Shown here piece after piece: positions 3,332 through 30,227 of a stretch of DNA of 45,873 bases (its first letter is position 1; every line of letters starts with the position of its first letter). Below the pieces are notes generated by a model, which saw only the letters and a program-made list of their open reading frames with translations, was not told where the DNA came from and did not search any database. Origin of the DNA: Candidatus Omnitrophota bacterium (GTDB taxonomy: Bacteria; Omnitrophota; Gorgyraeia; Gygaellales; JAMWDD01); assembly GCA_028717645.1 (NCBI GenBank), contig JAQUNK010000009.1:1-45873 (forward strand), read 5' to 3'. Made by a program: the position numbers and the translations under genes.

Positions 3332-4975
3332 ATGCCTGTACAAGAAATAGGAAACATCCTTTTAAGCTCCAAAGTAGTCACGAAAGAACAGCTTGAATTC
3401 GCTCTTACTATCCAAAGGAGCACTAGCCCCGGGCAAAGGCTGGGCAGGATCCTAAAGTATTACAATTTTGTAAGCGACGAAGCAATTGCCCAAGCCTTGA
3501 GTAAACAGGTCGGCTGGAAATATTTTGACAAAAAGTATGTCTTAGATCTTCCTGTAATAGAGAAAATAGGCCTGGATTTCCTGATAGACAGGGCATTTGT
3601 TCCGGTTGAAACAGAGAACGAACTTAGCTTTATTTTCGCCTACCCTTTTGATATCGAAGCAACTGATCTTTTAGCCAGCCTGGGGCTGCGCGACAAAGAG
3701 TTTTATATTGGCAGCGAGGGCGCAATCCGGGCGCATCTGGAGCTGCTCAAGAATAAAAAAATAAAGCAGGAGATTGACAAGAGAATAAACCTGCTTAAGG
3801 AAAGAGGCGTTGTTGGCGATGAGCTAAAAGAGCTCTTGGATGAGCTGCTTAATGATGCGGTTATTCATAATGCCACCGATATCCACATTGAGCCTGAAGA
3901 AGAAATATCCACCATACGTTTTAGGATTGACGGCATACTCTACTTTAAGTTTTGTATTCCCCTGGAGGTGCATAACAACTTAATCAATGTGGTATTTAGC
4001 CGCGCAGAGATTACTGTCTCTGACTTTTACCGCTTCCATGATGCTAGGTTCCAGTATACCTATTCGGATCACTCGGTAGATATCCGGGTATCGAGCATCC
4101 CTTCTATTTTTGGTCCTGCCTTGGTTTTAAGGCTCCTGGATGTAAATAAGACCCTGATTACTCTGCCTAATCTGGGATTTGACCAGATGCACTTTGATAA
4201 TATCAGCCGCATAGTGCGTAAGCCCCACGGAATTATCATTATCACCGGGCCCACAGGAAGCGGCAAAACTACTACTCTTTATGCCATCTTAAACCAGCTT
4301 AAAGACCTTTCCACAAAAGTATTAACCATTGAGGATCCTGTGGAAATCAAGATGCCGCTTATAAACCAGGTGCAGATTAATGAGAAACAGGGCATAAGCT
4401 TTGCCCATGCCACAAGGGCTTTTTTAAGGCATGACCCTAATATCATCTTAATCGGTGAAATCCGTGACCCTGATACGGCGCAGGAAGCAATCCGCGCATC
4501 CATTACCGGACACAGGGTGCTTTCCACGCTGCATACCAACACCGCGGTAGATTCCATTTACCGGCTGCATGACTTAGGTATAGACCTTTCTTACATCGCA
4601 AACAGCATTCTTTGCGTCATTTCCCAAAGACTGATCCGCAAGCTCTGTCCTTTTTGCAGGAAAAGAGTTAAGGTTAAAAAGGAAAACATGCCTGATTCTT
4701 TTAAGAATTTTCTTCTTGGCGAAAACGAAAATGAGATTCGCTTGTTTAAGGCAGGCGGTTGCGAACACTGCCAGGGAGGTTATAAAGGCCGTACCGTGAT
4801 TGCCGAGATCTTGGATTTTGACGAGGAAATTCGCGATATGGTTGCTTCCGGGAAACTTGACCAGCTTCGGCACAAATGGAGAGAAAAGGCATATTTAACT
4901 CTGGAGCAGGATACAGGAACGCTTCTTTTAAAAGGGCAAACCTCGCTTGAAGAGGCGGAAAGGATACTCGGATAG
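3332..4975 (+). CDS. PilB/GspE-family assembly ATPase (IncI PilQ-like)
   Basis: At 547 residues this is a standard hexameric pilus or secretion ATPase. It has an N-terminal MshEN-like domain (QEIGNILLSSKVVTKEQLE), Walker A GPTGSGKTTT (about residue 306), an Asp box region (LTIEDPVEIK), Walker B ILIGEIRDPDTAQEA (about 371) and a His box (VLSTLHTNTA). The C-terminal metal-binding module of GspE/PilB proteins is present as CPFC (about 439-442) and CEHC (about 478-481). It powers pilin extraction and fibre growth from the cytoplasmic face. The stop abuts the ATG of the inner-membrane platform gene, the usual GspE-GspF order. Confidence 0.93.
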   Translation: MPVQEIGNILLSSKVVTKEQLEFALTIQRSTSPGQRLGRILKYYNFVSDEAIAQALSKQVGWKYFDKKYVLDLPVIEKIGLDFLIDRAFVPVETENELSFIFAYPFDIEATDLLASLGLRDKEFYIGSEGAIRAHLELLKNKKIKQEIDKRINLLKERGVVGDELKELLDELLNDAVIHNATDIHIEPEEEISTIRFRIDGILYFKFCIPLEVHNNLINVVFSRAEITVSDFYRFHDARFQYTYSDHSVDIRVSSIPSIFGPALVLRLLDVNKTLITLPNLGFDQMHFDNISRIVRKPHGIIIITGPTGSGKTTTLYAILNQLKDLSTKVLTIEDPVEIKMPLINQVQINEKQGISFAHATRAFLRHDPNIILIGEIRDPDTAQEAIRASITGHRVLSTLHTNTAVDSIYRLHDLGIDLSYIANSILCVISQRLIRKLCPFCRKRVKVKKENMPDSFKNFLLGENENEIRLFKAGGCEHCQGGYKGRTVIAEILDFDEEIRDMVASGKLDQLRHKWREKAYLTLEQDTGTLLLKGQTSLEEAERILG

Positions 4976-6181
4976 ATGTATTACAGATACAGCGTCTTGA
5001 CTCAAACCGGCAATGAAATTAAAGGCTTTGAGCGGGGGGCATACCCAGAAATAGCGAAAAGGCTAAAAGAGAAAAATTATTACATATTATCCTTGGAAGC
5101 GGATTTCTTTAAGTCAATAAAGTTTGTCCTGGAAAAGAAGAGCGTCAAGGCGCAAAGCTTGTCTTTATTTTTTGAGGATCTGGCCAATATGCTTAAAACC
5201 GGTATTGCCATGAACGAGGCGATAAGCGCTCTTCGCGAGTCATCCATTGATAAGGTATTGTCTAAAGCCTTATCGGGAATCGAATATGATCTTGCCAATG
5301 GTTTTTCTCTGGCTAAGGCCTTTGAGAAAACAAAAGTTTTCCCTTGGCTGGTTTTAAACACGCTTAAGGTAGGAGAGAAATCCGGATCTCTTGAGCAGGT
5401 CTTTGTTGACCTGGCGCAGTATTATTCCAGGGAGGCGGAATTCTTGAGCAGTTTAAGGAACGCTGTGATTTATCCGGCAGTCGTATTCTCTATGCTCATT
5501 GGAATAATGTTCTATGTTTCCTTTAAGGTAATTCCGCACCTGGAAGCGCTTCTTCCCATAAACGGCAATAGTTATTTTGCAACCAGGCTGCTTTTATTTT
5601 TAAGTCATTTCCTGAAGGATTACTGGTTTGTCTACCTATTGTTTCCCGTTGTTGGTATTTTTATTTACTCAAGGTTCAGGAAAAGCCCGGCTGGAAGGAT
5701 CGCCTCTTACTATTACAAGATTCCTCTCTTCGGCCCGGTTGCAAAAGACGCGGCTTTCAGCGCGTTTTTCTCTAACCTTGCGGTCCTCTCAAGAAACGGC
5801 ATCAATATCGCTGATGCGCTTTCATTGATTGAGGAAACCACTTCCTATCAGTTCTTAGCTAAAAAGATTGGCAGGCTAAAAGACTACATCGCAAGCGGCC
5901 TAAGTTTCTGGCAGGCGTTACAAAAGGATCCGTTCTTTCCGTCATTTATTTATTATTCGGTAAGAAAGGGTGAGGAGATGGGTTCGCTTGATGAGTATCT
6001 ACAGAATCTTTCCAAGTATTATTTTGAGAAGGTTTCAAGGCGCACGCGCGTAATTTTGAGTTTTATCCAGCCTGCGCTTTTAGTGTTTTGCGCCCTGATT
6101 CTGTTATTTGTTGTCTCGGCATTCATCATGCCGGTTTACAGCAATCTTTCCAACATTGCGGGAGGCAATGTTAAGTTTTAG
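4976..6181 (+). CDS. GspF/PilC-family inner-membrane platform protein (IncI PilR-like)
   Basis: The 401-residue product has the duplicated GspF domain. Each half has a helical bundle (first SLFFEDLANMLKTGIAMNEAI, second AFFSNLAVLSRNGINIADAL) followed by membrane helices (about 170-190, 215-235 and 372-395). The motif LKVGEKSGSLEQVF and its second-half echo VRKGEEMGSLDEYL are typical. The protein anchors the ATPase and passes pilin subunits into the growing fibre. The start codon directly follows the ATPase stop. Confidence 0.92.
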   Translation: MYYRYSVLTQTGNEIKGFERGAYPEIAKRLKEKNYYILSLEADFFKSIKFVLEKKSVKAQSLSLFFEDLANMLKTGIAMNEAISALRESSIDKVLSKALSGIEYDLANGFSLAKAFEKTKVFPWLVLNTLKVGEKSGSLEQVFVDLAQYYSREAEFLSSLRNAVIYPAVVFSMLIGIMFYVSFKVIPHLEALLPINGNSYFATRLLLFLSHFLKDYWFVYLLFPVVGIFIYSRFRKSPAGRIASYYYKIPLFGPVAKDAAFSAFFSNLAVLSRNGINIADALSLIEETTSYQFLAKKIGRLKDYIASGLSFWQALQKDPFFPSFIYYSVRKGEEMGSLDEYLQNLSKYYFEKVSRRTRVILSFIQPALLVFCALILLFVVSAFIMPVYSNLSNIAGGNVKF

Positions 6182-6200
6182 GAGAAAGGAGGTGAGAGCA

Positions 6201-6635
6201 ATGAGGTTAAGGAGCAAGAAAAGCGGTTTTACGCTGATCGAACTGGTCCTGGTCATAAGCATCATCGCGCTTCTGATTATGGCGGTAGGTTTGACCAGCG
6301 GCATCAGGGAGAACGCCAAGGTGCATTCGGCTTCTGAATCGGTCAAGGCTTTAAGGACGGCTGCGGAAAGCTACATTGCAGGCGGTAATATGACCTATAC
6401 CGGAATAACCGTAGCAGGCCTGCAGACGTCAGGGTATCTGCCTGCTGCATTTTCCGCAACAGGTTCGAATCCCTGGGGCGGCAACTACGCGATAGACCCG
6501 AACACCGACGCCAATAAAGTGGATATTTCACTTACCGGCGTAAGTGCTTCCGCGGCAGCGCGCCTGAGTGCATTGTTTGCCAACAGCGCGGCAGCAACAA
6601 GCTATGCATCTGAGACATGGACGATAACGTTTTAA
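6201..6635 (+). CDS. Type IV pilin-like protein 1, likely major pilin (PilS-like)
   Basis: I use the ATG at 6201 because AGAAAGGAGGTGAG lies just upstream and a short leader ending in Gly fits prepilins. The 144-residue product reads MRLRSKKSG then FTLIELVLVISIIALLIMA, a textbook prepilin peptidase site (G before F, Glu at mature position 5) and N-terminal helix. The mature C-terminal domain is small and Ala/Ser/Thr-rich, with few charged residues. As the first pilin after the platform gene it matches the place of PilS in IncI thin pilus operons. It overlaps the next pilin gene by 19 bases. Confidence 0.88.
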   Translation: MRLRSKKSGFTLIELVLVISIIALLIMAVGLTSGIRENAKVHSASESVKALRTAAESYIAGGNMTYTGITVAGLQTSGYLPAAFSATGSNPWGGNYAIDPNTDANKVDISLTGVSASAAARLSALFANSAAATSYASETWTITF

Positions 6636-7090
6636 AAAGGAGGAAGGGATTCAGTTTAGCCGAGCTTAGCCTTGTGCTTATGCTGGCAGGGGTATTTATT
6701 GCCGCAGCGTTTTATTCAGCGGCAAAAATACGTCAGGTTGTTTCAGCGCAAAGGGTGATGACAGAGCTTGAATCAATAGCTCTGGCAAGCACGAGATTCT
6801 ACAGTGAGCGTGGGGCGTGGCCGGCGGCCTTAGCCGACCTTCGCCCCGGCTACCTGGCACAGCAATCAAACGATGTGGATCCTTTTGGCAATGCTTACAC
6901 AATCACCTCTAACGCTTCAAGCGTTTCGGTGTCCACATTTCTGCCGAAAGGCCTGGTTACCCCTGAAAGCTTTGGCAGCGAGATCGTAATTGTAAATCAA
7001 GGCAACAACGATCTAGTGAGTGTTAGCAAGACACCGGAATCAAGAACCTGGAAGTTAAAGTATGAGAAAAAATACATCTATAAACAATAA
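6617..7090 (+). CDS. Type IV pilin-like protein 2 (minor pilin)
   Basis: This 157-residue protein has the leader MDDNVLKRRKG followed by FSLAELSLVLMLAGVFIAAAF, a class III signal with Glu at mature position 5. A pilin-like alpha/beta domain follows (TRFYSERGAWPAALADLRPGYLA, DPFGNAYTIT). The start lies inside the previous pilin gene. A second AAAAAGGAGG sits within its first codons, where it encodes KRRK. This could be a minor pilin or a second structural subunit. Confidence 0.82.
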   Translation: MDDNVLKRRKGFSLAELSLVLMLAGVFIAAAFYSAAKIRQVVSAQRVMTELESIALASTRFYSERGAWPAALADLRPGYLAQQSNDVDPFGNAYTITSNASSVSVSTFLPKGLVTPESFGSEIVIVNQGNNDLVSVSKTPESRTWKLKYEKKYIYKQ

Positions 7091-7889
7091 GAGGGGTTTT
7101 TCCCTTATTGAGCTCTGTATTGCTCTTGGGGTTTTGGTAATTCTAACCTCATCCATTACGCCTGTTTTTATCAAAAAAATGCAGATAAAAGCAGGGGAAA
7201 AGACTGCTTTGGAGATGTCCACAATAGAACAGGCAGCGCTTTCCTATTGCGCAACTAACAATGCCTGGCCCGTAAGTATTCAGGCATTACAAAGCGCGGG
7301 GTATTTAAATCCTTCCTGGAGTGCTTTCAATCCCTGGCAGAACGCGTATACCATCTCTTCAAGCACAAGCGCTTTTACGGTTTCAACTACTGTACCTCAG
7401 GAGTGGACTAATCTTGTGGCAAGAGACCTGCCTACCAGCTCCATATCTGGAGCTGTTGTCGGCAGCACTGTGCCTGCACCAGGCAGTCAAAATGACTCAC
7501 TTGCCATAGGTTCAATCGTTATCTGGTCTGGTACTGTCGCTTCCATACCTGCAGGTTGGCAGCTTTGCGATGGCACTAATGGCACTCCTGATTTAAGGGA
7601 TAGGTTTGTGGTGGGAGCAAGGCAGGATAACGGCGGTGTTTCAATGACGAATGTTTCCGGAACATTGACCAAGTCTGGAGGAGAAGCAAAGCATACTTTA
7701 ACTATTGCTGAGATGCCTGCGCATACGCATAATTACAATGAGCCTACATTCTATAGCAGGTATGACGGACACAGCTCTCCTTTATGCACAGGGACGCAAG
7801 TTTCAAATACCAGCAGTGTAGGCGGTGGTCAAGCACATAATATACTACCGCCGTATTACGCTCTCTGTTTCATTATGAAGATCTCATAA
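7062..7889 (+). CDS. Pilin fused to a phage-tail-collar-like domain (possible PilV-type tip adhesin)
   Basis: At 275 residues this is longer than the other pilins. Leader MRKNTSINNKRG and FSLIELCIALGVLVILTSS form a class III signal and pilin helix. A pilin body with NPWQNAYTIS runs to about residue 120, followed by a Ser/Gly/Pro linker. From about 147 the sequence changes to a tail-collar type domain: IPAGWQLCDGTNGTPDLRDRFVVGA, a HTHNY segment and the C-terminal PPYYALCFIMKI. Such domains occur in phage tail fibres and microcystin-dependent-type proteins. IncI PilV is also a pilin with an adhesive C-terminus that selects recipients, so recipient or surface recognition is a reasonable inference. 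It overlaps the preceding gene by 29 bases. Confidence 0.8.
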   Translation: MRKNTSINNKRGFSLIELCIALGVLVILTSSITPVFIKKMQIKAGEKTALEMSTIEQAALSYCATNNAWPVSIQALQSAGYLNPSWSAFNPWQNAYTISSSTSAFTVSTTVPQEWTNLVARDLPTSSISGAVVGSTVPAPGSQNDSLAIGSIVIWSGTVASIPAGWQLCDGTNGTPDLRDRFVVGARQDNGGVSMTNVSGTLTKSGGEAKHTLTIAEMPAHTHNYNEPTFYSRYDGHSSPLCTGTQVSNTSSVGGGQAHNILPPYYALCFIMKIS

Positions 7890-7893
7890 AACA

Positions 7894-8802
7894 ATGACCT
7901 CTAAATTAAAGAAGGCTTTCAGCATTGTTTTGTTCCTATTCGTTTTATTAGGAAAAGCTTTTGCTCTTGAAGCAACCGATATCCTGGGAATGGTAAATTT
8001 AAACTGCATAGACTTAAGGGTAATCGGTGTATGCGTAAATCCTATTGGTATCCCTGGGATCGTAATCATGTATTGGGAACCTGCCCTGCTCATTGAAACC
8101 GTCAAGCGCCCGGGCGACACGGTAATCGATTCGTTAAAACCGGTTATCGTTGATATGGCAAGCCAGGGAACTAAAAGCCTAATGTCCGGGTTTACCGGGT
8201 TGCCTGTAGGGGTTTCAAGCGGATCCAGCTCTAGTAAGATAACCGGCACTAACCTGCAGTTTAATGAAGCGCACGTGTATGAGTTTCCATTCAGGGATGA
8301 GATTATGTCTTTTATCGATATGCAGTGTCCAGATAAATTACCAACAGGCCCATTTATCAAGTATCTATCGGAACTTGATTCAGCAGAGTGGCGTATAGGG
8401 GCTATTGAGGCTTTGCATCCAAAAAGCATTGCTTCAGCAGCTAGCGGTTTAACCTGCGCTGCCACTGGCGCCTTCCTGGATGATCTGTGCATGGGATTCT
8501 GGGGAGCGACTTACCCCAGACGCGGCTTTGTTACGCATCAGAGCGAAGTAGTGGGAAGCGCAATAGCTGCAACTAGGGCAGTAAGCATAGCTTCGCTTTT
8601 GGGTTCTATTTCGCACATTGTTTTAGAAACAACAGGTTTTATTCCTTCTTTTGAAAGCGATAAGCTGGAGTTAATCTATCCGAATCCAAGCGGTTGCATC
8701 AGAATAGGCCAGCACCCGGCAACCTGGGAATCAGGTAAGTTATCTTCTAGCGGCAAATATCTTTGGGTATATTGGAGAAGAAGAATATGCTGTATTTATT
8801 AA
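7894..8802 (+). CDS. traU: TraU-family mating-pair protein
   Basis: This 302-residue exported protein has a signal peptide (about residues 1-25, ending KAFALE). The sequence NLNCIDLRVIGVCVNPIG near the N-terminus and WGATYPRRGFVTH (about 204-216), followed by AIAATRAVSIAS, match the Cys-rich TraU family of F-type and ICE transfer systems. TraU is a periplasmic protein needed mainly for DNA transfer and mating-pair stabilisation. Several Cys are conserved in place, which fits the disulfide chemistry provided by the thioredoxin-like genes downstream. It overlaps the next gene by 16 bases. Confidence 0.72.
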   Translation: MTSKLKKAFSIVLFLFVLLGKAFALEATDILGMVNLNCIDLRVIGVCVNPIGIPGIVIMYWEPALLIETVKRPGDTVIDSLKPVIVDMASQGTKSLMSGFTGLPVGVSSGSSSSKITGTNLQFNEAHVYEFPFRDEIMSFIDMQCPDKLPTGPFIKYLSELDSAEWRIGAIEALHPKSIASAASGLTCAATGAFLDDLCMGFWGATYPRRGFVTHQSEVVGSAIAATRAVSIASLLGSISHIVLETTGFIPSFESDKLELIYPNPSGCIRIGQHPATWESGKLSSSGKYLWVYWRRRICCIY

Positions 8803-9326: not shown

Positions 9327-10051
9327 GATTATTTATTCTTGTGTTTATTATTTTTTTATCGCACCTTGCTTTGGCAAAAGCAGAAAACATCTTTCTGTAT
9401 AGACGGATTGATTTTTTCCAAGATATAGGAATACAACAAGAACCTGCAATAGCGCAAACTAATAATTCTTCCGAAGCTATCCAAGAAGAATGGGCTGAGC
9501 CGATAATTAGCCCTTCAGGTCGGGTAACTATCTATGTTCCGCCTAAAGAAGTAAGGGATTTTTTGGATAAGCCTGATCCGGAAAGCGCAAAGGCATACTT
9601 ACAGTGGAATTTAAAAAGGATTAAGAAATTCATCTTAGCCCAGGAATTGCTAAGGAGAGAAGCAAAGGAGCTTGAGGTAATGAAGGAAACTAAAGGTCTA
9701 CTTGAGCCTGATTCCAGCGATACTTTTAAAGATTCAGGAGGTGATGTTAAAACCGGAACAGGGTATCTGTTTTATTTCATGCTAAAAGGATGTCCAACTT
9801 GCGAGAAAGAATCCCGGGTGATAGAAGATATTTACCTTAACCACCCCGAAATCAGGATTGAGGCCTTTGCCAAAGGTTTCTCTGATAGGGAACTAGAAAA
9901 CCTTAGATTCTCAGCTATGCAGGATAACGGAATGAGCAGCCTTTTTAAAGTTAAATCATATCCGGCTATCGCGGTATTTAACAAGAGGAATAAGAGGTAT
10001 TTTTTGTCTGGGCTTATGGATAAAGATAGGATACTTAATCTTTTCAAATGA
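9323..10051 (+). CDS. traF: TraF-like periplasmic thioredoxin-fold transfer protein
   Basis: The 242-residue product carries a signal peptide (about 1-20) and a C-terminal thioredoxin-like domain from about residue 147: YLFYFMLKGCPTCEKES with a CxxC active-site-like pair (about 157/160) and the later VKSYPAIAVFNK segment. The middle part, ESAKAYLQWNLKRIKKFI, resembles the helical region before the domain in F-type TraF. TraF proteins help fold disulfide-containing Tra proteins in the periplasm. It overlaps both neighbours by four bases (ATGA-type junctions). Confidence 0.75.
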   Translation: MRLFILVFIIFLSHLALAKAENIFLYRRIDFFQDIGIQQEPAIAQTNNSSEAIQEEWAEPIISPSGRVTIYVPPKEVRDFLDKPDPESAKAYLQWNLKRIKKFILAQELLRREAKELEVMKETKGLLEPDSSDTFKDSGGDVKTGTGYLFYFMLKGCPTCEKESRVIEDIYLNHPEIRIEAFAKGFSDRELENLRFSAMQDNGMSSLFKVKSYPAIAVFNKRNKRYFLSGLMDKDRILNLFK

Positions 10052-11743: not shown

Positions 11744-11776
11744 GGAAGTTTTGTATTGTTAGAAGTGAGGTGCACA

Positions 11777-12520
11777 TTGAATAAAAAAGCGTTAGTCAAA
11801 GAGTACGCGGGAAAACATCGATATTTTTCTTTGTCGCAAATTGCGCGGGATACGGGCCTGGATAGAAAAATACTGTGGGATTATTTGTCTCAATTGAAGG
11901 CGGATAAGGTTATTTTTGATGCCGGGTATGGCTGCTATAGCTCAATGGAGAAAGTGTTTATATTACCAACGGTAGCGCGCGCGCAAGATATTACGCAGTT
12001 TATTAAGAAAGAATTCCCGTTAGTCACTGATTTTGTTGTATGGGATACGAAGGCATTGCAATCCTTTTACCACCACACCCAGACACACCATATTACTTTT
12101 GTTGAGGTAGGCAAGGATGTTCTTCCTTCTGTTTATGATAAGGTATACCTTAAATTTCAGAATGTTTTAAGGGAGCATAGGTCTAAAGTATTTTTTAAAT
12201 CGTTTGATGTGACGCATGATCCGGTTGTTATAAGAGGATTGGTTTCCAGATCACCGCGGGTCGACCATGTTCCTACTTTGGAAAAAATATTGATTGATAT
12301 GTTTATGGATTTAGAAGAGTATAATTATATTGGTCGGATGGATTATTTGGAAATATGGCGGGAATTGATTCAAGAATATAGGATGGATATCCGTCTTATT
12401 CATGGCTATAGTAAGCGTAGAAAGTGCTTGGAAGGCATATTTTCACAACTTATTGATATAAAAGAGAGTTACGGTATAGAGTTTTGCCAACTACTCCGAG
12501 AAGTTGGTAAAACTCTATAA
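11777..12520 (+). CDS. AbiEi-like antitoxin/transcriptional regulator
   Basis: I choose the TTG at 11777, giving 247 residues, because GAGGTG sits a few bases before it; a TTG at 11756 and a GTG at 11765 are alternatives. The N-terminus is a winged-helix domain (FSLSQIARDTGLDRKILWDYLSQLKADKVIF), as in AbiEi antitoxins. The rest (FPLVTDFVVWDTKAL, HPVVIRGL-like DPVVIRGLVSRSPRV, VPTLEKILIDMFMD) matches AbiEi/DUF6577-type proteins. In this type IV system the antitoxin represses its own operon and protects against the AbiEii toxin without binding it. The toxin gene follows after 16 bases. Confidence 0.75.
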   Translation: MNKKALVKEYAGKHRYFSLSQIARDTGLDRKILWDYLSQLKADKVIFDAGYGCYSSMEKVFILPTVARAQDITQFIKKEFPLVTDFVVWDTKALQSFYHHTQTHHITFVEVGKDVLPSVYDKVYLKFQNVLREHRSKVFFKSFDVTHDPVVIRGLVSRSPRVDHVPTLEKILIDMFMDLEEYNYIGRMDYLEIWRELIQEYRMDIRLIHGYSKRRKCLEGIFSQLIDIKESYGIEFCQLLREVGKTL

Positions 12521-12536
12521 TTGTTAAGAGGATGGT

Positions 12537-13574
12537 ATGTTTGATAAAAATCAGATAGAGAGCTTACGAAAAGAGTTAAAAATCCGCGATCCCGGAATAT
12601 TTGAAAAGACTGTACGCGCCTTCAACTTGTTGGATGGGCTTCTTAAGGTTTATCCAGGGCTTATTTTTAAGGGTGGCACATCGATATTATTATACCAGTT
12701 TCCACCGGTACGCCTTTCGATCGATATTGATATTCTATTACCTGAGAAAGACAGGGAGCCCCTCTTGGCCAATTTTCAAGCAATTGCGGAAGCATCCGGT
12801 TTCAAGGCCGTAAAAGAAGATGAACGCCAGAGTAAGATCCCCAAAGCGCATTATAAATTTCGCTATGATCCGTTCTTTGGTCCGAGGGAGGATTCGATTC
12901 TTTTAGATGTTGTGTTTTGCGAGCATCCGTATCATAAGGTAGTTGAAAAATCTTTAAATGGATATCCATTGATTTGGTCTGATACGAATGTCGTTGTTAA
13001 AATACCTACAATTGATGGCCTCGTTGGGGACAAAATGACCGCGATTTCGCCTAAAACGCTTGGGCTTCGTTTGACCGAAGGCCGTGATATGGAGTATTTA
13101 AAACAAATCATTGACCTTGGGGTTTTGTTTAGCATGGCTGAAGATCTCGATGATATTCGGAATACGTTTAGTAAGACATGCGCTATGGAGAATGATTTCA
13201 GAAAGGCAAAATATTCTCAGGAAGAAATATTTGACGATATTCTCGAGGTATCTTTTCGGTATTCGCAATGGCTGCTTAAAGGAGCTGACAATTCGTTCAA
13301 AGAGATTGAAAGCATCAATAAGGGGCTTGAACGGTTAAGTAATCACCTTGTCGTACCGATTAGGCCTGATCATTTGAAGGTCGCATTTGCTAAGATTGCA
13401 TATATGATACGTTTGATGCGCGATACGAACGCATCAAAAATTATGAAAGATGTTAATTTGTCGGTTATTGACGGATTAGGTTTTGACGGTAGGTTTAAGA
13501 TTTTAGAAGGACTGAAGAAAATGAATACTCCGGCGTATTTCTATTGGGCCTTAGCTGTTGGGATAAAGAGCTAA
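12537..13574 (+). CDS. abiEii: AbiEii-like nucleotidyltransferase toxin
   Basis: This 345-residue protein has the nucleotidyltransferase core of the AbiEii/AbiGii family: KGGTS (Gly46, Gly47, Thr48, Ser49), then RLSIDIDILLP with metal-binding Asp63 and Asp65. The later lysine-containing motif is VGDKMTAI, around residue 163. AbiEii toxins transfer nucleotides to tRNA or other targets and cause abortive infection. The preceding gene is the matching antitoxin. Length and motifs look intact. A GC-rich hairpin follows the stop. Confidence 0.88.
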   Translation: MFDKNQIESLRKELKIRDPGIFEKTVRAFNLLDGLLKVYPGLIFKGGTSILLYQFPPVRLSIDIDILLPEKDREPLLANFQAIAEASGFKAVKEDERQSKIPKAHYKFRYDPFFGPREDSILLDVVFCEHPYHKVVEKSLNGYPLIWSDTNVVVKIPTIDGLVGDKMTAISPKTLGLRLTEGRDMEYLKQIIDLGVLFSMAEDLDDIRNTFSKTCAMENDFRKAKYSQEEIFDDILEVSFRYSQWLLKGADNSFKEIESINKGLERLSNHLVVPIRPDHLKVAFAKIAYMIRLMRDTNASKIMKDVNLSVIDGLGFDGRFKILEGLKKMNTPAYFYWALAVGIKS

Positions 13575-13590
13575 GAAACTATTCGAAGTG

Positions 13591-13619
13591 GCGCAAGTGC
13601 TTTGGAAAGCCATTTGCGC
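13591..13619 (+). terminator. Hairpin after the AbiE operon
   Basis: GCGCAAGTGCTTT and AAAGCCATTTGCGC form a compact imperfect hairpin 17 bases after the toxin stop. No long T-run follows, so it is a weak intrinsic terminator candidate. Confidence 0.45.
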
Positions 13620-13765
13620 AACTTATTGAAGTGAGTTAATGCCTATTTTTTAATGTGCCATAAATGCGTCAGACAGTACATAAACTCAACTCTAATTTCC
13701 TCTAGCCTTCCAGTCCAGCCATAAAATTTTAATCGCCCACTTTACCATTTAGCCGTCTTTAACTA

Positions 13766-14204
13766 CTACTTCAATCATTCACTTCCTTTCTTGTTTTTTG
13801 TTTTCTCTTGCCGTCACGTAATCCTCCTTTCTTTTTATCCGCCTACAATAACCCAAGCCTGACTTTTGTGCAAGAAAATCCTTTGGAAAAATTCATCTCT
13901 ACCTAAAAAGCCTTTTCGTGGTTTGCCTCGGAAAGGCTTTTTTGGTATCAGAAGTATTCTGCCCCTTGCGGGGAGTCTCAATTTTTCCAAAGGACTCCAC
14001 TGATGCTCGTTCGCTTGGCGCTCACTCCCTTCGGGCATGCCTGTTTTCTTGACAAAAGACCGTATTTTCTGTGGTGTGCCTCAAAAAATACTTCAACTTC
14101 TTGGGTTTTAATTTTCGGCGTCAAAAGAAAGGAGTTTCACATGAGCCAAGAAAAAACAAAACAAAAAACAAATCGAAAGGAGGTGAGTAACATGATTGAA
14201 GTAG
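13766..14204 (+). ncRNA. Structured element copy 1 (candidate cis-regulatory RNA or ssDNA structure)
   Basis: This region has no convincing gene on either strand before spoVG, but it folds extensively. Outer arms: 13766-13778 with 14192-14204 (13 bp), 13780-13790 with 14175-14185, 13791-13804 with 14158-14171 (14 bp), 13824-13835 with 14123-14134 (12 bp). Then AACCCAAG with CTTGGGTT, and CTTTTGTGCAAGAAAA (13863-13878) with TTTTCTTGACAAAAG (14044-14058). Inside are 13880-13893 with 13980-13993 (14 bp), a hairpin 13902-13945 with loop TGGTTTGCCT, CAGAA-GTA-TTCTG, CCCC-TTGC-GGGG, and a hairpin 14062-14091 with loop TGGTGTGCCT. Copy 2 at 17689-18086 keeps the same helices with compensatory changes. 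The 3' arm covers both ribosome sites of spoVG. The family is not one I recognise. The strand is assigned + because the arm pairs with the downstream gene start. Confidence 0.8.
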
Positions 14205-14446
14205 CACGTATTTTCAAAGTAGAAAATAAAGAAGAAAGTACCCTTAAAGCCTTCGTAGACGTCAAAGTCTCCGATGTAGTTTTAATCAAAGGCATCCGGG
14301 TACTGGCTAAAAAAGAGGGTGGGCTGTTTGCAGCTATGCCTTCCAATTTAGCTGGTGACGGTAAGTATTATCCTACCGTCAAGTTTCTGACGGCCGAAGC
14401 CAATGAAGAACTACAAAAGGTAGTTCTTACGGCTTACGAAGCTTAA
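14192..14446 (+). CDS. spoVG: SpoVG-family protein
   Basis: The 84-residue product aligns by eye with SpoVG: IEVARIFKVENKEESTLKAFVDVKVSDVVLIKGIRVL, then GGLFAAMPS and YYPTVKFLTAEANEELQKVVLTAYE. SpoVG is a small site-specific DNA/RNA-binding regulator found well beyond spore formers. I choose the ATG at 14192, right after GAAAGGAGGTGAG, because it begins the conserved domain. An in-frame ATG at 14141, also with a ribosome site (AAAGGAG), would add a 17-residue Lys/Gln-rich extension (MSQEKTKQKTNRKEVSN). Both ribosome sites lie in the 3' arm of the structured element. The modifier gene follows. Confidence 0.88.
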   Translation: MIEVARIFKVENKEESTLKAFVDVKVSDVVLIKGIRVLAKKEGGLFAAMPSNLAGDGKYYPTVKFLTAEANEELQKVVLTAYEA

Positions 14447-14495: not shown

Positions 14496-14729
14496 ATGAA
14501 CTTAAACGAACTGAAAAACGAGAAGATCAACGTAACCATCGCAGGAGAAGAGGTTGAGGTAAAAAGAAGCGATTCCGTAAAGGACACCCTAACAAGGATC
14601 CTTCAGGAGAAGGGAATTGATTCCTTTACCATCCTGGTTGACGGCGCAGAAGTTACTTCAACCGATAACCTGCCAGCTACTTTTGACGGCCATGATATCG
14701 AAGTGGAAAAGTACGTCAAAGCAGGTTAA
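14496..14729 (+). CDS. Ubiquitin-like (beta-grasp) modifier protein
   Basis: This 77-residue protein has the beta-grasp order: two strands (KINVTIAG, EEVEVKRS), one helix (DSVKDTLTRILQEKG), strands FTILVDGAEV and DIEVEKYV, and a short free tail ending Lys-Ala-Gly. Modifiers usually end in Gly-Gly; a single terminal Gly also occurs in bacterial families such as those of PRTRC and related cassettes. The three following genes encode E2-like, E1-like and JAMM proteins, so this is very probably the substrate that is adenylated and conjugated. A 17-bp terminator-like hairpin follows directly, which may give more modifier than enzyme. Confidence 0.82.
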   Translation: MNLNELKNEKINVTIAGEEVEVKRSDSVKDTLTRILQEKGIDSFTILVDGAEVTSTDNLPATFDGHDIEVEKYVKAG

Positions 14730-14735
14730 AGCGTT

Positions 14736-14779
14736 AAGCCAAGAGAGGGAGAGAATTTTCTCCCTCTCTTGGCTTTTAA
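14736..14779 (+). terminator. Strong hairpin between modifier and E2-like gene
   Basis: AAGCCAAGAGAGGGAGA (14736-14752) pairs perfectly over 17 bp with 14759-14775, leaving a 6-nt loop, and TTTT completes it. It has the form of an intrinsic terminator. The next gene's ribosome site begins immediately after, and the operon continues in the same direction, so partial termination or mRNA end protection is the likely effect. Confidence 0.8.
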
Positions 14780-14792
14780 AGGAGAAAGAAAG

Positions 14793-15380
14793 ATGATAGA
14801 TACAGAGCTAATAAATAAAGCCAAGAAAAAATCAGGCCTGATTGAGCAGATTGACGCTGCCTGGCGGGAATTCGTAAACAGACTCAGAGAAAATACCTTT
14901 AGTATCCCTTTTAAAGGCGAATACAGCTGTATGATTAAAGACAGCGACATGTTTGTTGAAGGTTACTCTGGCCTACTTCTCATAGATAAGCTGTATTATA
15001 ACCATAAAACTTATTTCTTGAAGAAGCCTATTAAATATTACCCTTTTAAAATCTACGGCGTATACGGCGAAAGGGGAAGCTTTACGAATTTTGTAACTGA
15101 TCCGGAAATAGGCTTTCATTACCTTGGCTTAAGCGATAAAGGACACTCAATTTGCACAGGAGATATTCAATACCTTAATCCTGAATCCTTAGGCCTGCTC
15201 AAAGAAACTGCTCTTAAGATAATCAGAGCATTCCGGGTAATCAATCTTGAATCCTTGGGAACGGTCATCCTTCCGGAAAGTTACTTAAACCTTAAAAACA
15301 TCTTTTCCAATAAGGATGAAGACGCAAAGCATAAGTTTGAAAAACTGCTTGGTCAAAACCTCATTGAGGAAATCATTTAG
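14793..15380 (+). CDS. E2-like conjugating protein (PRTRC-B/RWD-like), tentative
   Basis: The ATG at 14793 follows AAAGGAGAAAG, giving 195 residues; the frame is open upstream to a TTG at 14769 but that lies in the hairpin. Residues 80-127 resemble the E2 core: PIKYYPFKIYGV, then DPEIGFHYLGLSDKGHSICTGDIQYL. His109 and Cys121 would correspond to the HPN-type His and the catalytic Cys of the G-x-I-C-x-D motif (here GHSICTGD). PRTRC protein B, thought to be E2-like, has a similar GRVCLGSM motif. Position between the modifier and E1-like genes strongly supports the role. Overall similarity is too low to be certain by eye. Confidence 0.6.
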   Translation: MIDTELINKAKKKSGLIEQIDAAWREFVNRLRENTFSIPFKGEYSCMIKDSDMFVEGYSGLLLIDKLYYNHKTYFLKKPIKYYPFKIYGVYGERGSFTNFVTDPEIGFHYLGLSDKGHSICTGDIQYLNPESLGLLKETALKIIRAFRVINLESLGTVILPESYLNLKNIFSNKDEDAKHKFEKLLGQNLIEEII

Positions 15381-15393
15381 AAGGAGAAAAAAC

Positions 15394-16377
15394 ATGCCTG
15401 AACAAGCGATTTATGAACGTCAAAACTTAATCAACGGCCTGGAGATTCCGCAGACTGCTTCTGTTGTAGGCTGTGGAGGCACAGGTTTTTGGACCGCTTT
15501 ACTTCTTGCAATGTCCGGCGTAGAAGATTTAATCCTGATTGATTCTGACATAGTTGAAGTATCCAATCTAAACCGGCTTTTCTTTGAAGAAACCTGCGTA
15601 GGCAAGAAGAAAGCGGAAGCATTAAAGAATCTAATCCTAACAGTAAGAAAACAGGTCAGGATTGAAATCCATGACATGCGCATTGAAAAACCTCTGGACT
15701 GTCAGGTTTTAAGGGGAGAGATTTTCTGCTGTACAGATAACTTAAAAAGCCAGCAGATTATCTGCGCTTATTGCAAAAAGAACGAGTTTGCCTATCAAAG
15801 AATAGGCTATGACGGCACGATCCTGAATGTCTCCAAGACATTCCCGCTTTCCTTTAAGGAAGTAGAACAGCAGGGTTATACGGTAACGCCTTCCTGGGTA
15901 ATCCCAGCGGTATTTGCCGCGGCAGCAGGAGTATCTTCCAGAATATACAAAGAATTATGCCTGATGGATGATCTAGGTAAACTCCATATACAGAAATCTT
16001 CCCACATCTGTAAAAAAATCCTAGATGACGCAAAGAAAGAAGAACGGGAGTACATCGAAGAGAATATCAACGATTTTATTCCTGATAGTTACGGTTATTG
16101 TGATGACTGCGATAGAATTAACCCTGATGATTCCGATTACGGCTACTGTCCGGATTGCAAGAGAGTAGATCCCGAAGACGGTTGGGCGCGCTGTTCTGAA
16201 TGTGATGAGCATTATACTGAAGATGATATTGAAGACATAAAAGAAAAGGCAAAGAATGAGGAGTATGACAGGATAATCGAACAGCTTGAAACAGGCGCGC
16301 TTAGAGACCCAAAACTTATCGCAGCCCTTAAAAAATGGGGAGAAAGGAAGGAGGATACAAAAAATGTTAGAAAATGA
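15394..16377 (+). CDS. E1/ThiF-like modifier-activating enzyme with zinc ribbons
   Basis: The ATG at 15394 is preceded by AAGGAG; the frame runs further upstream but into the E2-like gene. The 327-residue protein has the ThiF/E1 Rossmann nucleotide site VVGCGGTGFW (Gly26-Gly31), LIDSDIVEVSNLNRLFF with Asp50, Asp52, Asn58, Asn60 and Arg61 for adenylation, and CCTDN (Asp115). Candidate catalytic Cys are 112, 113, 124 and 127. The C-terminal part adds three CxxC pairs (236/239, 252/255, 267/270), a likely zinc-ribbon region. It should adenylate the 77-residue modifier's C-terminus and pass it to Cys121 of the E2-like protein. It overlaps the JAMM gene by 14 bases. Confidence 0.88.
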   Translation: MPEQAIYERQNLINGLEIPQTASVVGCGGTGFWTALLLAMSGVEDLILIDSDIVEVSNLNRLFFEETCVGKKKAEALKNLILTVRKQVRIEIHDMRIEKPLDCQVLRGEIFCCTDNLKSQQIICAYCKKNEFAYQRIGYDGTILNVSKTFPLSFKEVEQQGYTVTPSWVIPAVFAAAAGVSSRIYKELCLMDDLGKLHIQKSSHICKKILDDAKKEEREYIEENINDFIPDSYGYCDDCDRINPDDSDYGYCPDCKRVDPEDGWARCSECDEHYTEDDIEDIKEKAKNEEYDRIIEQLETGALRDPKLIAALKKWGERKEDTKNVRK

Positions 16378-17170
16378 TCTTCTAAAAAAGAGTAATATTC
16401 TGGAAGTAAAAATAAAAAACTACGGTGAATGCGGTTTCTGCAGCGACAGGGATAATCAGGAAACCTTGAAAATCCCCTGGAGTATCTGGAGTCAGTGGTT
16501 GTATATCAGCCAGTGCATGGGAGATAAGGAATGGGGCGCGGTATTCTGGGTTAAGGATAACACCATAACCAGCTTTAAAATTCCCAAGCAGGAGGTAGGT
16601 TCAGTAGACTGTGAATTCAAGGAGGAATTGGGCGGTGACGGAATAATCCATTCGCACCATGATATGGGAGCGTTTCATTCTTCGCAGGATGATGCCCACG
16701 CGCGCAATCTCTACACTTACAGCATTGTTACCGCTAATTCAAAAGGCAGTATTGCTACCAAGAGGGTTAAACTTCCTTGTAAAGGCTTTGGCTACGTAAA
16801 AATAAGCTTGCAGTTGGTTGAATTGCCTGCGATAGACCTTTCAAAGATAAGCGAAAGAATAAGGGAATTGATTCCAGAGGCGAACTCAGGATTTGAGGAA
16901 AGCGAGTACCCTTGTGATATTTGTCAGACCGGTGACTGCGAAAATTGTGAACACTCAGGTATGCCTTTTCTATCTTGTCAGATTTGTAATATTTTTAAAT
17001 GCAAATCCTGCAAGGCAACTGCCGGCCTGGAGATTCGGGGAGTGCTTCCTTTTTGCGAGGTTTGTAATGGTTCTGAAACTTGCGCTTCCTGCGAAAAAAT
17101 CGCAAAATATCTTAAAAATTACCCTGAGGAGCGAGGACGCTTGCAAACTCCAGCTGAAAGTCAATCGTGA
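16364..17170 (+). CDS. JAMM/MPN-type isopeptidase with cysteine-rich C-terminus
   Basis: I start at the ATG at 16364, after AAAGGAAGGAGG, giving 268 residues. The JAMM zinc site is complete: Glu56 (KEWGAVFWV), His96 and His98 (IIHSHHD), Ser106 and Asp109 (HSSQDD), with the exact H-x-H-x7-S-x2-D spacing. Such enzymes remove or process ubiquitin-like modifiers. From about residue 182 to 252 there are many CxxC pairs (CDIC, CENC, CQIC, CKSC, CEVC, CASC), so two or three zinc-binding modules probably follow the catalytic domain. It ends the cassette; two inverted repeats lie downstream. Confidence 0.88.
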   Translation: MLENDLLKKSNILEVKIKNYGECGFCSDRDNQETLKIPWSIWSQWLYISQCMGDKEWGAVFWVKDNTITSFKIPKQEVGSVDCEFKEELGGDGIIHSHHDMGAFHSSQDDAHARNLYTYSIVTANSKGSIATKRVKLPCKGFGYVKISLQLVELPAIDLSKISERIRELIPEANSGFEESEYPCDICQTGDCENCEHSGMPFLSCQICNIFKCKSCKATAGLEIRGVLPFCEVCNGSETCASCEKIAKYLKNYPEERGRLQTPAESQS

Positions 17171-17415: not shown

Positions 17416-17616
17416 ATGAGAGTCGATAATTGGGTTGACGAATTAAGGAATCAGTTAAAAAGCTTTGACGAAGAAACATCGGGCAGTGAAATTAAAATGG
17501 CAGATATAACCCTTGGCTACATTGACAGGCAAGGCTTAATTCATTACCATAAAATTGAATACAGGGCAAAAGGGTTTGAGAAGAAGCCGGTCTCAAGCCA
17601 ATCACTACAGAGATAA
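17416..17616 (+). CDS. Hypothetical 66-residue protein
   Basis: This small acidic-then-basic protein (MRVDNWVDELRNQLKSFDEE at the start, ADITLGYIDRQGLIHYHKIEYRAKG in the middle) has no signal peptide, membrane span or known motif. It shares its leader motif with the modifier gene, so the two may be co-regulated. It stands alone between inverted repeats and structured element copy 2. Confidence 0.55.
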   Translation: MRVDNWVDELRNQLKSFDEETSGSEIKMADITLGYIDRQGLIHYHKIEYRAKGFEKKPVSSQSLQR

Positions 17617-17688: not shown

Positions 17689-18086
17689 CCATCCTCAAAT
17701 TTTCTTTTCTGTTTTTCCTTGTCGTCACGTAATCCTCTTTCTTTTTCCCGCCTACAATAGCCCAAGATTGACTTTTGTGCAAGAAAATCCTTGAGAATAA
17801 TTCCTCTCTACCTTGCACTTGTGGTCTGCCTCAAGATGCAAGGTATCAGAAGTATTCTGCCCCTATAGGGGAGTCTCAATTTTTCTCAAGGACCCCAGGA
17901 AACTCACTCGCTTGCGCTCGTTCCTTTCGGGCATACCTGTTTTCTTGACAAAAGCCGGCATTTCCTGGGTTGCCTGAAAATGCCTTCAAATCATTGGGCT
18001 TATATTTTCGGCGTCAAAAGAAAGGAGGCTCACATGAGCCAAGTAAAAAAAGAAATGTTAAAGAAAAACGAAAAATTTGAGGATGG
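17689..18086 (+). ncRNA. Structured element copy 2 (candidate cis-regulatory RNA or ssDNA structure)
   Basis: This is the second copy of the element at 13766. Helices: 17689-17703 with 18072-18086 (15 bp), 17734-17746 with 18016-18028 (one bulge), AGCCCAA with TTGGGCT, 17772-17787 with 17940-17954, 17789-17802 with 17878-17891, hairpin 17810-17844 with loop TGGTCTGCCT, CAGAA-GTA-TTCTG, CCCC-TATA-GGGG, and hairpin 17957-17984 with loop TGGGTTGCCT. Stem sequences differ from copy 1 but pairing is kept. The outer arm again pairs with the start of the downstream gene, and that arm sequence is specific to this locus. No credible gene occupies 17617-18033. Confidence 0.8.
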
Positions 18087-18327
18087 GGTGTTGCGCGCAG
18101 ATGCCTGTATGGAAAGGTATCAAAGCAGCCGAGATTCTCAATACAGAACGCATCAAGAGGATTTCCCGGAAGCTGCGTTCGGCTTATCCGCTCTCTGGGA
18201 AGAAAGAAATCTAATGAAGAACGTTTATAAGCTTATGGCGAAAGGATTTAAGCCAAACGGTTCTGAAAGCTTGGAATCCTTTGTTGAGAAGCACCAGAAT
18301 TTGCTTGATGAAGGAGGTGATTTTTAA
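18034..18327 (+). CDS. Hypothetical 97-residue protein downstream of structured element
   Basis: The ATG at 18034 follows AAAGAAAGGAGGCTCAC and begins with the same MSQ-Lys-rich start as the long form of spoVG. The product is helical and charged, with a region ADACMERYQSSRDSQYRTHQ and a C-terminal helix. I do not recognise it. The ribosome site and first codons lie in the 3' arm of the structured element. Its stop overlaps the next ATG (TAATG). Confidence 0.65.
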   Translation: MSQVKKEMLKKNEKFEDGVLRADACMERYQSSRDSQYRTHQEDFPEAAFGLSALWEERNLMKNVYKLMAKGFKPNGSESLESFVEKHQNLLDEGGDF

Positions 18328-24201: not shown

Positions 24202-24417
24202 ATGAAAGAACTCGTTAAGGCATTTACTGTAGAAGAGATAGCAGAATATTTGCGTCTGCATCCGTATACTATACGAAGATTGGCTAGGGAAAAGAAAATA
24301 CCGGCTTTTCGTGCTGGCGGCCAGTGGCGTTTTCGGAAGGATGATATTGGCCAGTGGTCGAAATCATATCCATTTGCGCTCGGGAATAAAAAATTAAAGG
24401 GGCAATGGCATAAATGA
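24202..24417 (+). CDS. Excisionase-type helix-turn-helix protein heading the defence operon
   Basis: This 71-residue HTH_17-like protein reads AFTVEEIAEYLRLHPYTIRRLAREKKIPAFRAGGQWRFRKDDIGQW, a winged-helix DNA-binding unit. GGGAGAA precedes the ATG. Its end overlaps the helicase gene by four bases, so it is co-transcribed with the defence genes and is probably their regulator. It parallels the 59-residue protein before the AbiE pair. Confidence 0.82.
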   Translation: MKELVKAFTVEEIAEYLRLHPYTIRRLAREKKIPAFRAGGQWRFRKDDIGQWSKSYPFALGNKKLKGQWHK

Positions 24418-27400
24418 TACAAAGTTTTAATAATAAAACCGAGAAAGTCGGAGATGATTTTAAAAAGAATATCGGTAAAGACAGCCGACTGCAAGTCGCG
24501 GCCGGCATTTTTACTATTTACGGTTTTGAGTGTCTCAATGTTGAATTAAAAAAGATCGATAAGTTAAGTTTTATATTCACGGATCCTACCTTTATCGAGG
24601 TTGATAAAAATAGGCGAGAGAAAAAACTATTTCAAATTAAAGCTGATTCCCGGCAAAAAGCCATTAGCGGGTCTGAGTTTGAAATAAATTTAAAGAACGA
24701 ACTTAAAGGGAAGGCAATCGCTAAAGAATGCAAGAAATGGATTGAGCAAAAAGCAATATTTAAAGCCAATATTGGGGATAAATATATCCAGCCGCATATA
24801 ACGCTTGAGAATGGTGAGAATAAATATGTGTATATGGGGATAAATGAATTTAGCAGTGCCGGGTTTGGCTATGAAAAAGACAATTCAATTTTGCACCAGA
24901 TCATTAAAACAGATGATTATGAAGCGACTAAGCAGTACATCCAAAATTTTGAAGAAGTTTGGAATGATGAAAAGATAGTAAAGAACGTGACCGACGAGGT
25001 TCTCGGATATATCGCGGACCTTTATAAGGAAAACTCCCCGGAATTTATCTATTACCTGACGCTCTATAATATCTTTGATGAGTTTTTGGAGGATATTTCC
25101 GAGGATGAACTTGCCAATGAGAAAACCGGCTTTAAGAATTCCGTAATTTGGAATAAGCTCTACGATTTTCAAAAAGACGCCGCTTTAGGAATTGTTAACA
25201 AATTAGAACGGCATAATGGGTGTATTCTTGCAGATAGTGTGGGCCTTGGGAAAACTTTTTCTGCCTTAGCTGTTATTAAATATTATCAGGAGAGAAACCG
25301 CACTGTACTCGTGCTTTGTCCGAAAAGGCTGGGAGATAATTGGCGGACTTTCTTGAACAATTATGACGACAATCCCTTGTTTAAGGATCGTTTGAATTAT
25401 CATGTCTTGTATCACACGGATTTATCCAGAGATCAGGGGCAATCAAACGGTGTCGATCTGTCTAGAGTCAATTGGGGTAATTATGATCTGGTCGTGATCG
25501 ATGAATCGCATAATTTTAGAAATAATGACCCTCGAAAAGATAGGGTGACACGATATCAGAGACTGTTGAACGATGTCATGAAGGCCGGAGTTAAGACAAA
25601 AGTTCTTATGCTTTCAGCGACCCCGGTCAACAACAGGTTTACCGACTTAAAAAATCAGATCGCTCTGGCCTGTGAAGGTGAAACAAATATTGCTGACGGG
25701 AGGATGGATACAGACAAATCGATCGATACCATCCTGACAAATGCGCAGAGAGTTTTCAATGACTGGTCAAAATTGCCGGTTGAAGAACGTACCAGCCAAG
25801 AGCTGTTGAAACGGCTTAATGCGAATTTTGATTTTTTTAAGTTACTTGACAGCGTCACAATAGCCCGAAGCCGAAGACATATAGAAAAGTATTACGATAT
25901 CAATAAGATCGGGAAATTTCCCAACAGGTTAAAACCGGTCACCCATCACGCTGATATTACAGAACTAGAAGGGTTTATTGAAATATCGGAGCTTTACAAA
26001 GAACTCTCGAAATTGTCAATGGTTATCTACTCTCCCACTGAATATATTTTAGACAACAAACGGCAATTTTACAGTGAAATTTACGACACAAAGCTCAACG
26101 GAGATTTTAGTTTTAAACAGGTTCATAGGGAAAGAAACCTCCAAACCCTTATGAGGGTAAATTTCCTTAAACGGCTAGAAAGTTCAGTGGATTCCTTCAG
26201 GATCACTCTTGGCAAATTTATCAGTGAGATCGAGCGGATTATTAATAAGATTGAGGAGTTCGAAAAAACCGGGGCTCAGGGATCGGTTGAGGCTATCCAG
26301 TTCGGCGATATCAATCTCGATGCTGATAGTGACGACTGGTTAAACGATGAATTTAGCGTCGGAGGTAAAGTTAGAGTTAACTTGGAGGATATGAATACAA
26401 CAGGGTGGAAGCAGGATTTGGAGGCTGACGTTCTTGTTGCCAAAGCAATATTCAGAGAGATGGAAAAGGTAACGCCCGAACATGATACAAAACTTAGAGA
26501 TCTAAAAGTATTCATCAAGAACAAATTGAGATCCCCTGTTAATCCTGGAAATAGGAAAATTCTGATATTCAGTGCTTTTGCGGATACGGTGAATTATCTA
26601 TACGAAAATCTTGCCGGGTACAATAAAACGCTTGGCCTTGAGACCGCAAAATTGACAGGATCAGATGAGAACAAGACCACACTAAAGTTAAACAACAACT
26701 TTAATAATATTCTGATCAATTTCTCCCCGCGATCCAAGGAGCGCAGAGATAAGTCAGCGCCGGAAATAGACGTCTTAATAGCGACGGACTGTATTTCCGA
26801 AGGACAGAACTTGCAGGATTGCGACATGCTGATTAATTATGATATTCATTGGAACCCTGTGCGTATTATCCAGAGGTTTGGCCGTATAGACAGGATCGGC
26901 TCAACGAATAAAGATATTCAGCTGGTCAACTTCTGGCCGCAGTTATCCCTTGATGATTATATAAATCTGAAAAATCGGGTTGAAAACAAGATGTTTATCG
27001 TTGATGCGACAGCAACCGGTGAAGATAACGTCCTGACGAATAAATCTTCGGATCTGTTATTTAGGAAGAAACAACTGGAAAGATTACAGGAAGAGATTGT
27101 TGATATCGAAGATATGGGTTCAGGCGTTTCAATTACCGATCTGGGGCTAAATGATTTCCGCATGGATTTAGTGAACTATATAAAAGATAGCGGGAGTCTT
27201 GCGAACGTTGCTAATGGGATGCATACGGTTTGCGGGAAAGACGTTGAGCGTGGGATTAAAGAAGGTGTTATTTTTGTCTTAAAAAATATTAACAGCGAAG
27301 TCAATATTGACAAGACCAATCAGCTTCATCCGTTTTATTTAGTGTACATAACTGCCAATGGGGAGATTTCTTCTAATCATTTGAACGTGAAAACCACGCT

Positions 27401-28297: not shown

Positions 28298-28299
28298 AG

Positions 28300-30225: not shown

Positions 30226-30227
30226 GA

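Follow-up and report, generated by a model that had tools for sequence, protein, structure and literature searches.

The window, by which we mean the whole stretch of 45,873 nucleotides analysed here, comes from an Omnitrophota genome and carries two copies of a foldback of about 400-440 nt each. The order along it is element 1, the SpoVG-like gene, a 77-aa protein, a 203-aa ORF, ThiF, JAB, element 2, gene2 and DUF6876, and both operons lie on the plus strand. The two copies are 80% identical (13790-14160 and 17702-18049) and are the only ones in this genome of 1.44 Mb. The foldbacks and genes are as follows.

13766 to 14204, minus strand (template strand of the downstream genes): whole foldback of copy 1; DNA fold z = -12.3
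14141 to 14446, plus strand: SpoVG-like protein (PF04026), with an inner start at 14192
14496 to 17170, plus strand: operon of the 77-aa protein, the 203-aa ORF, ThiF and Prok-JAB
15394 to 16377, plus strand: ThiF (E1-like)
16364 to 17170, plus strand: Prok-JAB
17689 to 18086, minus strand: whole foldback of copy 2; DNA fold z = -12.1
18034 to 18327, plus strand: gene2, a 97-aa protein, the first gene after copy 2

No relative of gene2 was found in PDB, Pfam or PHROG, and a structure search was given up because the model was too poor (pLDDT 64.7). Three SpoVG-family genes are present in this genome (G000 C2:50993, C18:17025 and C9:14204), and only the third follows an element. Within copy 1, and at the matching loops of copy 2, the fold consists of the following parts.

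13766 to 13823: outer left arm, complementary to about 14147-14204 (second Shine-Dalgarno and first SpoVG-like codons)
13824 to 13835: 5' strand of P1, CTCCTTTCTTTT, pairing with 14123-14134, AAAAGAAAGGAG
13840 to 13857: 5' strand of P2, with the inner loop TACAATA, pairing with 14100-14106 and 14117-14120
13863 to 13878: 5' strand of P3, pairing with 14044-14058 (TTTTCTTGACAAAAG)
13879 to 13994: P4 domain; its helix (13879-13893 with 13980-13994) encloses hairpins A, B and C
13900 to 13947: hairpin A, with the loop at 13919-13928, TGGTTTGCCT
13949 to 13961: hairpin B, within the P4 domain
13962 to 13973: hairpin C, within the P4 domain
14062 to 14091: hairpin D, with the loop at 14072-14081, TGGTGTGCCT
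14123 to 14134, plus strand: 3' strand of P1, holding the Shine-Dalgarno of the ATG at 14141
17822 to 17831: loop of hairpin A in copy 2, TGGTCTGCCT
17966 to 17975: loop of hairpin D in copy 2, TGGGTTGCCT

A sequence-only reading of the window had claimed that one 10-nt loop, TGGKNTGCCT, caps four hairpins with unrelated stems. All four loops were located correctly, and the stems beneath them were indeed four different sequences of 18, 9, 13 and 8 pairs, with one mismatch or bulge allowed. The GG/CC pairs that it proposed around a KNTG tetraloop were also predicted by folding programs. The pattern matched the window four times against 0.51 expected, and none of 100 shuffles reached four. When it was searched across the whole genome, 35 matches were obtained compared with 4 for the reversed pattern, and no loop outside the window had more than two contiguous pairs beside it among the 28 of 31 sites examined.

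Relatives of the element were then collected. Of 384 genomes of the phylum searched at the nucleotide level, 14 had any match, the window's own included, and by inspection the real relatives were G195, G318, G105, G038, G160, G056, G250 and G335. In 84,980 species scanned by pattern, 15 stretches were found. Omnitrophota relatives account for 11 of these; among them, Velamenicoccus archaeovorus (L046) has two copies 768 bases apart. The matches L051 and L056 were set aside as coding, and those from Wolfebacteria (L044 and L047) because they had only GGGGAGTTCTCAATTTTT in common. The Wolfebacteria loci carry a repeated hairpin element of their own, GATGTTTGACCCG...CGGGGAGTTCTCAATTTTT, which shares the core string and is otherwise different. 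A covariance model of the P4 domain (R1) detected the element in 10 of 384 phylum genomes, with a patchy distribution, and in 10 of 384 class genomes; the two sets overlap to a large extent. Gene2 was found in 9 of 368 class genomes, and the regions upstream of three gene2 loci without a model match held two elements that lack the loop hairpins (G386_C28 and G214) and one in G196. Together with these three regions and a third copy in G105, the 19 elements obtained by BLAST or by pattern make up a set of 23. The third G105 copy (L095, 8826-9180) has two loop hairpins with no intact SpoVG or gene2 behind it and is probably a remnant.

Several genomes have two or three copies per cluster, ahead of co-oriented genes, and the gene order is largely stable across relatives, being altered in Velamenicoccus and G056. 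G318, a genome of another order, has a copy that is 96% identical to copy 1. This identity makes horizontal transfer between orders likely, with a binning error as a possible source since the G318 contig is only 3.6 kb long. A blastn comparison at E 1e-5 with plasmids (72,556 records) and phages (50,697 records) gave no sequence match, and a search of viral contigs found no relative of the element. Rfam gave no match at the gathering score; with relaxed settings there were six matches below that score (five microRNA models and one sRNA model), none of them credible. In the literature on Omnitrophota structured RNA, integrative and conjugative elements and single-stranded DNA in conjugation, of which our coverage was partial, no such element was found.

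When 19 elements were folded singly, the folds were broadly alike, with differences in the inner branches. In the shared architecture, P1, with the Shine-Dalgarno, is followed by P2 with its inner loop and by a three-way junction to P3 and hairpin D; P3 leads into P4 with hairpins A, B and C, and then comes a variable region E. G250 is without the 3' part of the fold. In the P4 domain, 14 of 33 pairs were changed on both sides, and 0 of 500 shuffles were as high. There were 46 cells with such double changes, compared with 14.3 in shuffles and no more than 14 with the pairing slid; because many of the sequences are close relatives, these cells and counts are not independent events. P1 is likewise changed on both sides in G056b/Vela_b, where TTTCTGTTT stands with AACAGAAA. 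Compensatory base changes of the kind asked of a structured RNA are therefore present, and the same signal would be expected whether RNA or DNA is the folded molecule.

The loop was conserved with the fold. Across 43 loop hairpins, positions 2, 3, 6, 8, 9 and 10 (GG..T.CCT) are invariant, column 4 is T or G, and column 5 is free. Mean identity is 0.86 in the loop and 0.54 and 0.53 in the adjoining stem arms. Each of 21 of the 23 elements has at least two loop hairpins, as expected from the proposal of one loop on variable stems used in pairs; the reverse, free variation of the loop over conserved stems, was found in none of those 21. G335 has three, one of which replaces region E. The most divergent member, G196 (L231), has lost the P4 domain almost wholly and has kept both loop hairpins. 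Since the loop-less L229 and L230 retain the helix that pairs the Shine-Dalgarno and the TTGACA helix, the loops are not indispensable. With its stem fixed, the pattern (TTGTGGTNTGCCTCAA) had 14 matches in 237 Omnitrophota genomes, 12 of them inside these elements, and the reversed control had none. A chance likeness of the loops might be argued from the shortness of the motif and its mostly stemless occurrences in the genome; it is refuted by the 43 hairpins in these elements, and we give it virtually no credence.

Candidates outside the family were also considered. We rejected 44 viral matches of TTGTGGTNTGCCTCAA, which had at most 3 further pairs and in which the covariance model detected no element. 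Among the part of the listed sites examined in 12 genomes, no similar loop hairpin was found elsewhere except one in G017. There, the 16-mer TTGTGGTTTGCCTCAA caps a long hairpin on the minus strand of L162 (G017 C19) at about 9900-9925. The surrounding 760 nt or so are strongly self-complementary, have no clear genes and are unrelated to the SpoVG/gene2 elements. Because position N is free to vary, kissing between the two loops was set aside. Of the possible uses of the conserved loop pair, binding of a protein is the most likely. SpoVG, a candidate binder in the sequence-only reading, is reported to be an RNA-binding protein (PMC4959528). PF04026 proteins were present in all 12 genomes searched, including G017, which has no model-detected element, and co-occurrence of SpoVG and the element is therefore uninformative.

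We investigated which strand folds. The minus strand was the better-folding one in 18 of 19 elements with RNA parameters and again in 18 of 19 with DNA parameters, and against dinucleotide shuffles it was still stronger in 9 of the 10 elements tested out of these 19. Plus-strand folds were strong too (z from -5.5 to -14.1 in the 10 tested; -11.6 for the RNA fold of copy 1). The helices are almost purely Watson-Crick: G.U accounts for 3.6% of the pairs on the plus strand (77 of 2154) and for 5.7% of those on the minus strand. RNase P RNA of the same phylum was used as a control in 8 of 9 sequences, L240 being dropped because it was cut at the wrong place; here the plus strand folded better in 8 of 8, and G.U amounted to about 10.7%. 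Mismatches within helices that would be minus-strand wobbles numbered 24 against 13 others, and in a symmetric alignment of 17 of the 19 elements (G250 and G335 left out) in-helix wobbles were 28 for the minus strand against 14. The low wobble content is the firmer strand evidence; the 24:13 and 28:14 differences are modest and not independent of each other. The few plus-strand G.U pairs had been taken as support for RNA, which was overturned by the better minus-strand folds, the low G.U content and the wobbles that fit the minus strand. The signature of an RNA, with G.U pairs and a more stable sense strand, was thus not found. These results do not support the earlier proposal that the folded molecule is the transcript, and they favour the minus strand or DNA.

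They bear on the reading of the element as a cis-acting leader RNA of the plus strand. In such a leader, P1 and the outer stem would lock away the Shine-Dalgarno and the starts, and a loop-bound protein would open or keep the lock. The fold of about 330-440 nt would form on read-through or upstream transcripts and would give coordinated translational control of both operons. The strong plus-strand folds and the compensatory changes in the P4 domain fit this reading, the Shine-Dalgarno is paired in the folds and in three divergent relatives, and the paired conserved loops with the inner-loop sequences resemble an RNA-protein module. TwoAYGGAY is a bacterial leader RNA in which two hairpins have the same loop on different stems; it differs from the element in its loop sequence, and the element has no Rfam match and strand evidence that does not favour RNA. 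The scarcity of G.U and the minus-strand bias, opposite to RNase P of the same phylum, speak against the leader RNA, as does the missing Rfam match. We consider this leader, and the translational control drawn from it, the main rival of the promoter proposed below, possible and on balance doubtful.

The minus strand of the 5' arm contains promoter-like hexamers at the following places.

13845 to 13850, minus strand: -10-like TATTGT of copy 1, in the P2 inner loop, 17 nt from the -35-like site
13868 to 13873, minus strand: -35-like TTGCAC of copy 1, in P3, on the non-template arm of the folded minus strand
17754 to 17759, minus strand: -10-like TATTGT of copy 2, spacer 17
17777 to 17782, minus strand: -35-like TTGCAC of copy 2

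Read as its reverse complement, the 5' arm is thus TTGCAC-N17-TATTGT in both window copies. In 20 of 22 elements, the best-scoring hexamer pair occupied the same position, with a spacing of 16-18 nt; in 14 of the 15 tested out of these 22, it had p <= 0.05 against shuffles. The -35-like variants were TTGAGT, TTGAAA, TTGATA, TTGACG and TTGACA, and the -10-like ones TATTTT, TATACT, TATCTT, TATTCT, TACAAA and others. Both relatives without loops retain the hexamers, the TTGACA being perfect there. The spacing of the hexamers is broken in G335 by the insertion of two hairpins; G196 could not be scored. In the window, the hexamers agree with the consensus at 8 of 12 bases, and a strict promoter scan (9 of 12) did not report them; for Omnitrophota, no sigma consensus is known. 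That scan found no sense promoter inside either foldback and no plus-strand promoter in 13580-14200, which also speaks against a leader RNA; its one plus-strand match, at 17522, lies upstream of copy 2. A leader RNA would moreover leave the conserved spacing of the hexamers unexplained. The 3' arm has TTGAC in P3 in nearly all elements (G105b is the exception), and hairpin D separates it from the -10 region; in copy 1, hairpin D leaves the folded arm between the -35-like and -10-like sites.

The same hexamers would also function in double-stranded DNA, and the element could then be an ordinary leftward (outward) promoter whose inverted repeat is a by-product of gene-start duplication. Of the 13 elements with an ORF to their left, 11 have the nearest one on the plus strand, so an outward reading usually serves no gene. 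Paired loops are unexplained by such a promoter. Against a mere by-product of duplication, the outer arm is still complementary to the start of its own downstream gene in diverged lineages, in 15 of the 17 elements tested (of 23). For copy 1, the complementarity score was 28 compared with 13.1 +- 2.1 in shuffles. Scores against the other gene type were mostly near those of shuffles, with Vela_b as an exception (19.1); the complementarity of L043a was not significant. In L053, the left arm fits spoVG and gene2 lies downstream; this stretch (about 3700-4048 in strand coordinates) is an apparent chimera, as expected from recombination of two copies. We therefore regard a leftward promoter as very improbable.

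A priming site or single-strand origin (sso/ssi), at which the fold recruits RNA polymerase or primase for the complementary strand and gene expression is secondary, fits the fold and hexamer evidence equally. According to PMC4595007, sso of rolling-circle plasmids and of ICEBs1 are active only as folded single-stranded DNA, which RNA polymerase can read, and sso and Frpo both use this polymerase. The proposed element resembles sso in these two respects, with RNA polymerase as a possible reader. As described there, sso serve priming and are not tied to a start codon. Here, the outer arm tracks each gene's own coding sequence and intact elements end at a start codon, neither of which priming needs, and we judge a priming site improbable.

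The gene context is that of a conjugation-type element. The window cluster contains the F-type transfer genes TraH and TraU, and the Velamenicoccus cluster contains TraG_N, TraC, a HerA-like ATPase and a secretin. The conserved gene order is accompanied by variable restriction/Abi cargo. No relaxase or oriT was identified among the ORFs scanned in the window and Velamenicoccus clusters, and no transfer-strand polarity was found. An AbiEi/AbiEii pair (11756-13574) adjoins copy 1 on the left, and the cargo at 24414-33236 comprises an HKD+Snf2-type helicase, a type III methyltransferase and a type III restriction enzyme. Type II secretion/type IV pilus-like genes at 3332-8799 stand beside TraU and TraH, which suggests a mixed transfer apparatus. 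PRTRC or ubiquitin-like cassettes, which we take to consist of ThiF, JAB and a small beta-grasp-sized protein, share the ThiF and Prok-JAB genes with the operon of the window. They differ from it in that PRTRC models matched far below the NCBIfam cut-offs (TIGR03736, 15.8 against 144.75 bits; TIGR03735, 17.7 against 101.8), and by these cut-offs the operon is not a PRTRC cassette.

Single-stranded-DNA promoters of the Frpo / ssi kind were reportedly described by Masai and Arai in 1997. According to two papers (Samuel 2024, PMC11541004; Couturier 2023, PMC9849209), they are known from F, ColIb-P9 and other conjugative plasmids, and the F plasmid has two Frpo copies, 92% alike and about 5 kb apart (PMC9849209). 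In the features described there, the present element is alike in being a non-coding foldback of about 300-440 nt upstream of co-oriented genes in an F-type transfer cluster, in having two or more copies (here two, 80% alike and about 4 kb apart), and in a fold of the gene-template strand that unites -35 and -10, which is predicted here. Frpo1/2 of the F plasmid also showed a minus-strand bias with RNA parameters (20-24 kcal/mol) and, over a narrower stretch with DNA parameters, no clear strand bias. Used as a positive control for our hexamer scan, Frpo1/2 gave no comparable site in the matching arm (best 5.2 and 2.9). The element differs in the lack of sequence similarity to plasmid or phage records, in a stem that runs through the Shine-Dalgarno into the coding sequence, in its two fixed-loop hairpins and in its Omnitrophota host. 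A foldback upstream of unidirectional genes of a conjugative element is thus present; because sequence similarity is absent and transcription from single-stranded DNA is putative, we do not file the element as a member of Frpo/ssi.

We propose, with a probability of about 0.5, that the element works like a single-stranded-DNA promoter of the Frpo type, its loops serving as a protein site. It would enter a new cell as the single minus, or template, strand and then fold back. The P1-P2-P3 duplex would unite the -35-like site in P3 with the -10-like site, which lies in the mismatched P2 inner loop, and with the downstream duplex P1, which would extend over the Shine-Dalgarno into the gene. RNA polymerase could start near 14117-14122 and give an mRNA leader of about 20-24 nt with a good Shine-Dalgarno. 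In double-stranded DNA, a sense promoter would be absent because hairpin D parts the TTGACA of the 3' arm from any -10-like site, and the genes would therefore stay quiet until transfer. Hairpin D would branch off the template arm between -35 and -10, with hairpin A at the tip, and the fixed GGKNTGCC loops may be the binding site of a protein that stabilises or gates the fold. Against this single-stranded-DNA promoter, a promoter by itself accounts for neither the P4 domain nor the loops, and an RNA that blocks translation would pair the two Shine-Dalgarno sites and the opening codons in just this way. The failure to find a relaxase, oriT or transfer-strand polarity, the weak consensus match in the window, the broken spacing in G335 and the lack of plasmid or phage matches also count against it. 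The promoter and the RNA leader may both be true of the same sequence.

A wider version of this proposal is tentative. The element could form its own class of Omnitrophota single-stranded-DNA promoter, in which a GGKNTGCC loop code, displayed twice on unrelated stems, is read by a protein of the element and the ubiquitin-like conjugation operon is on only while the DNA is single-stranded; the fold might also lock the ribosome sites of read-through RNA, as a double lock in the resident state. The single-stranded-DNA promoters of the cited papers belong to conjugative elements of a few cultured groups. If the promoter reading is true, the element would add an example from an uncultured phylum. 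This example would have a fixed loop motif and be tied by its structure to the start of the gene, and its sequence would offer a way to find genes expressed during DNA entry. The ThiF/JAB (ubiquitin-like) operon, which has no assigned role, would then be grouped with genes for establishment or anti-defence. If the element is an RNA leader instead, it would be a new family with a clean two-loop recognition code.
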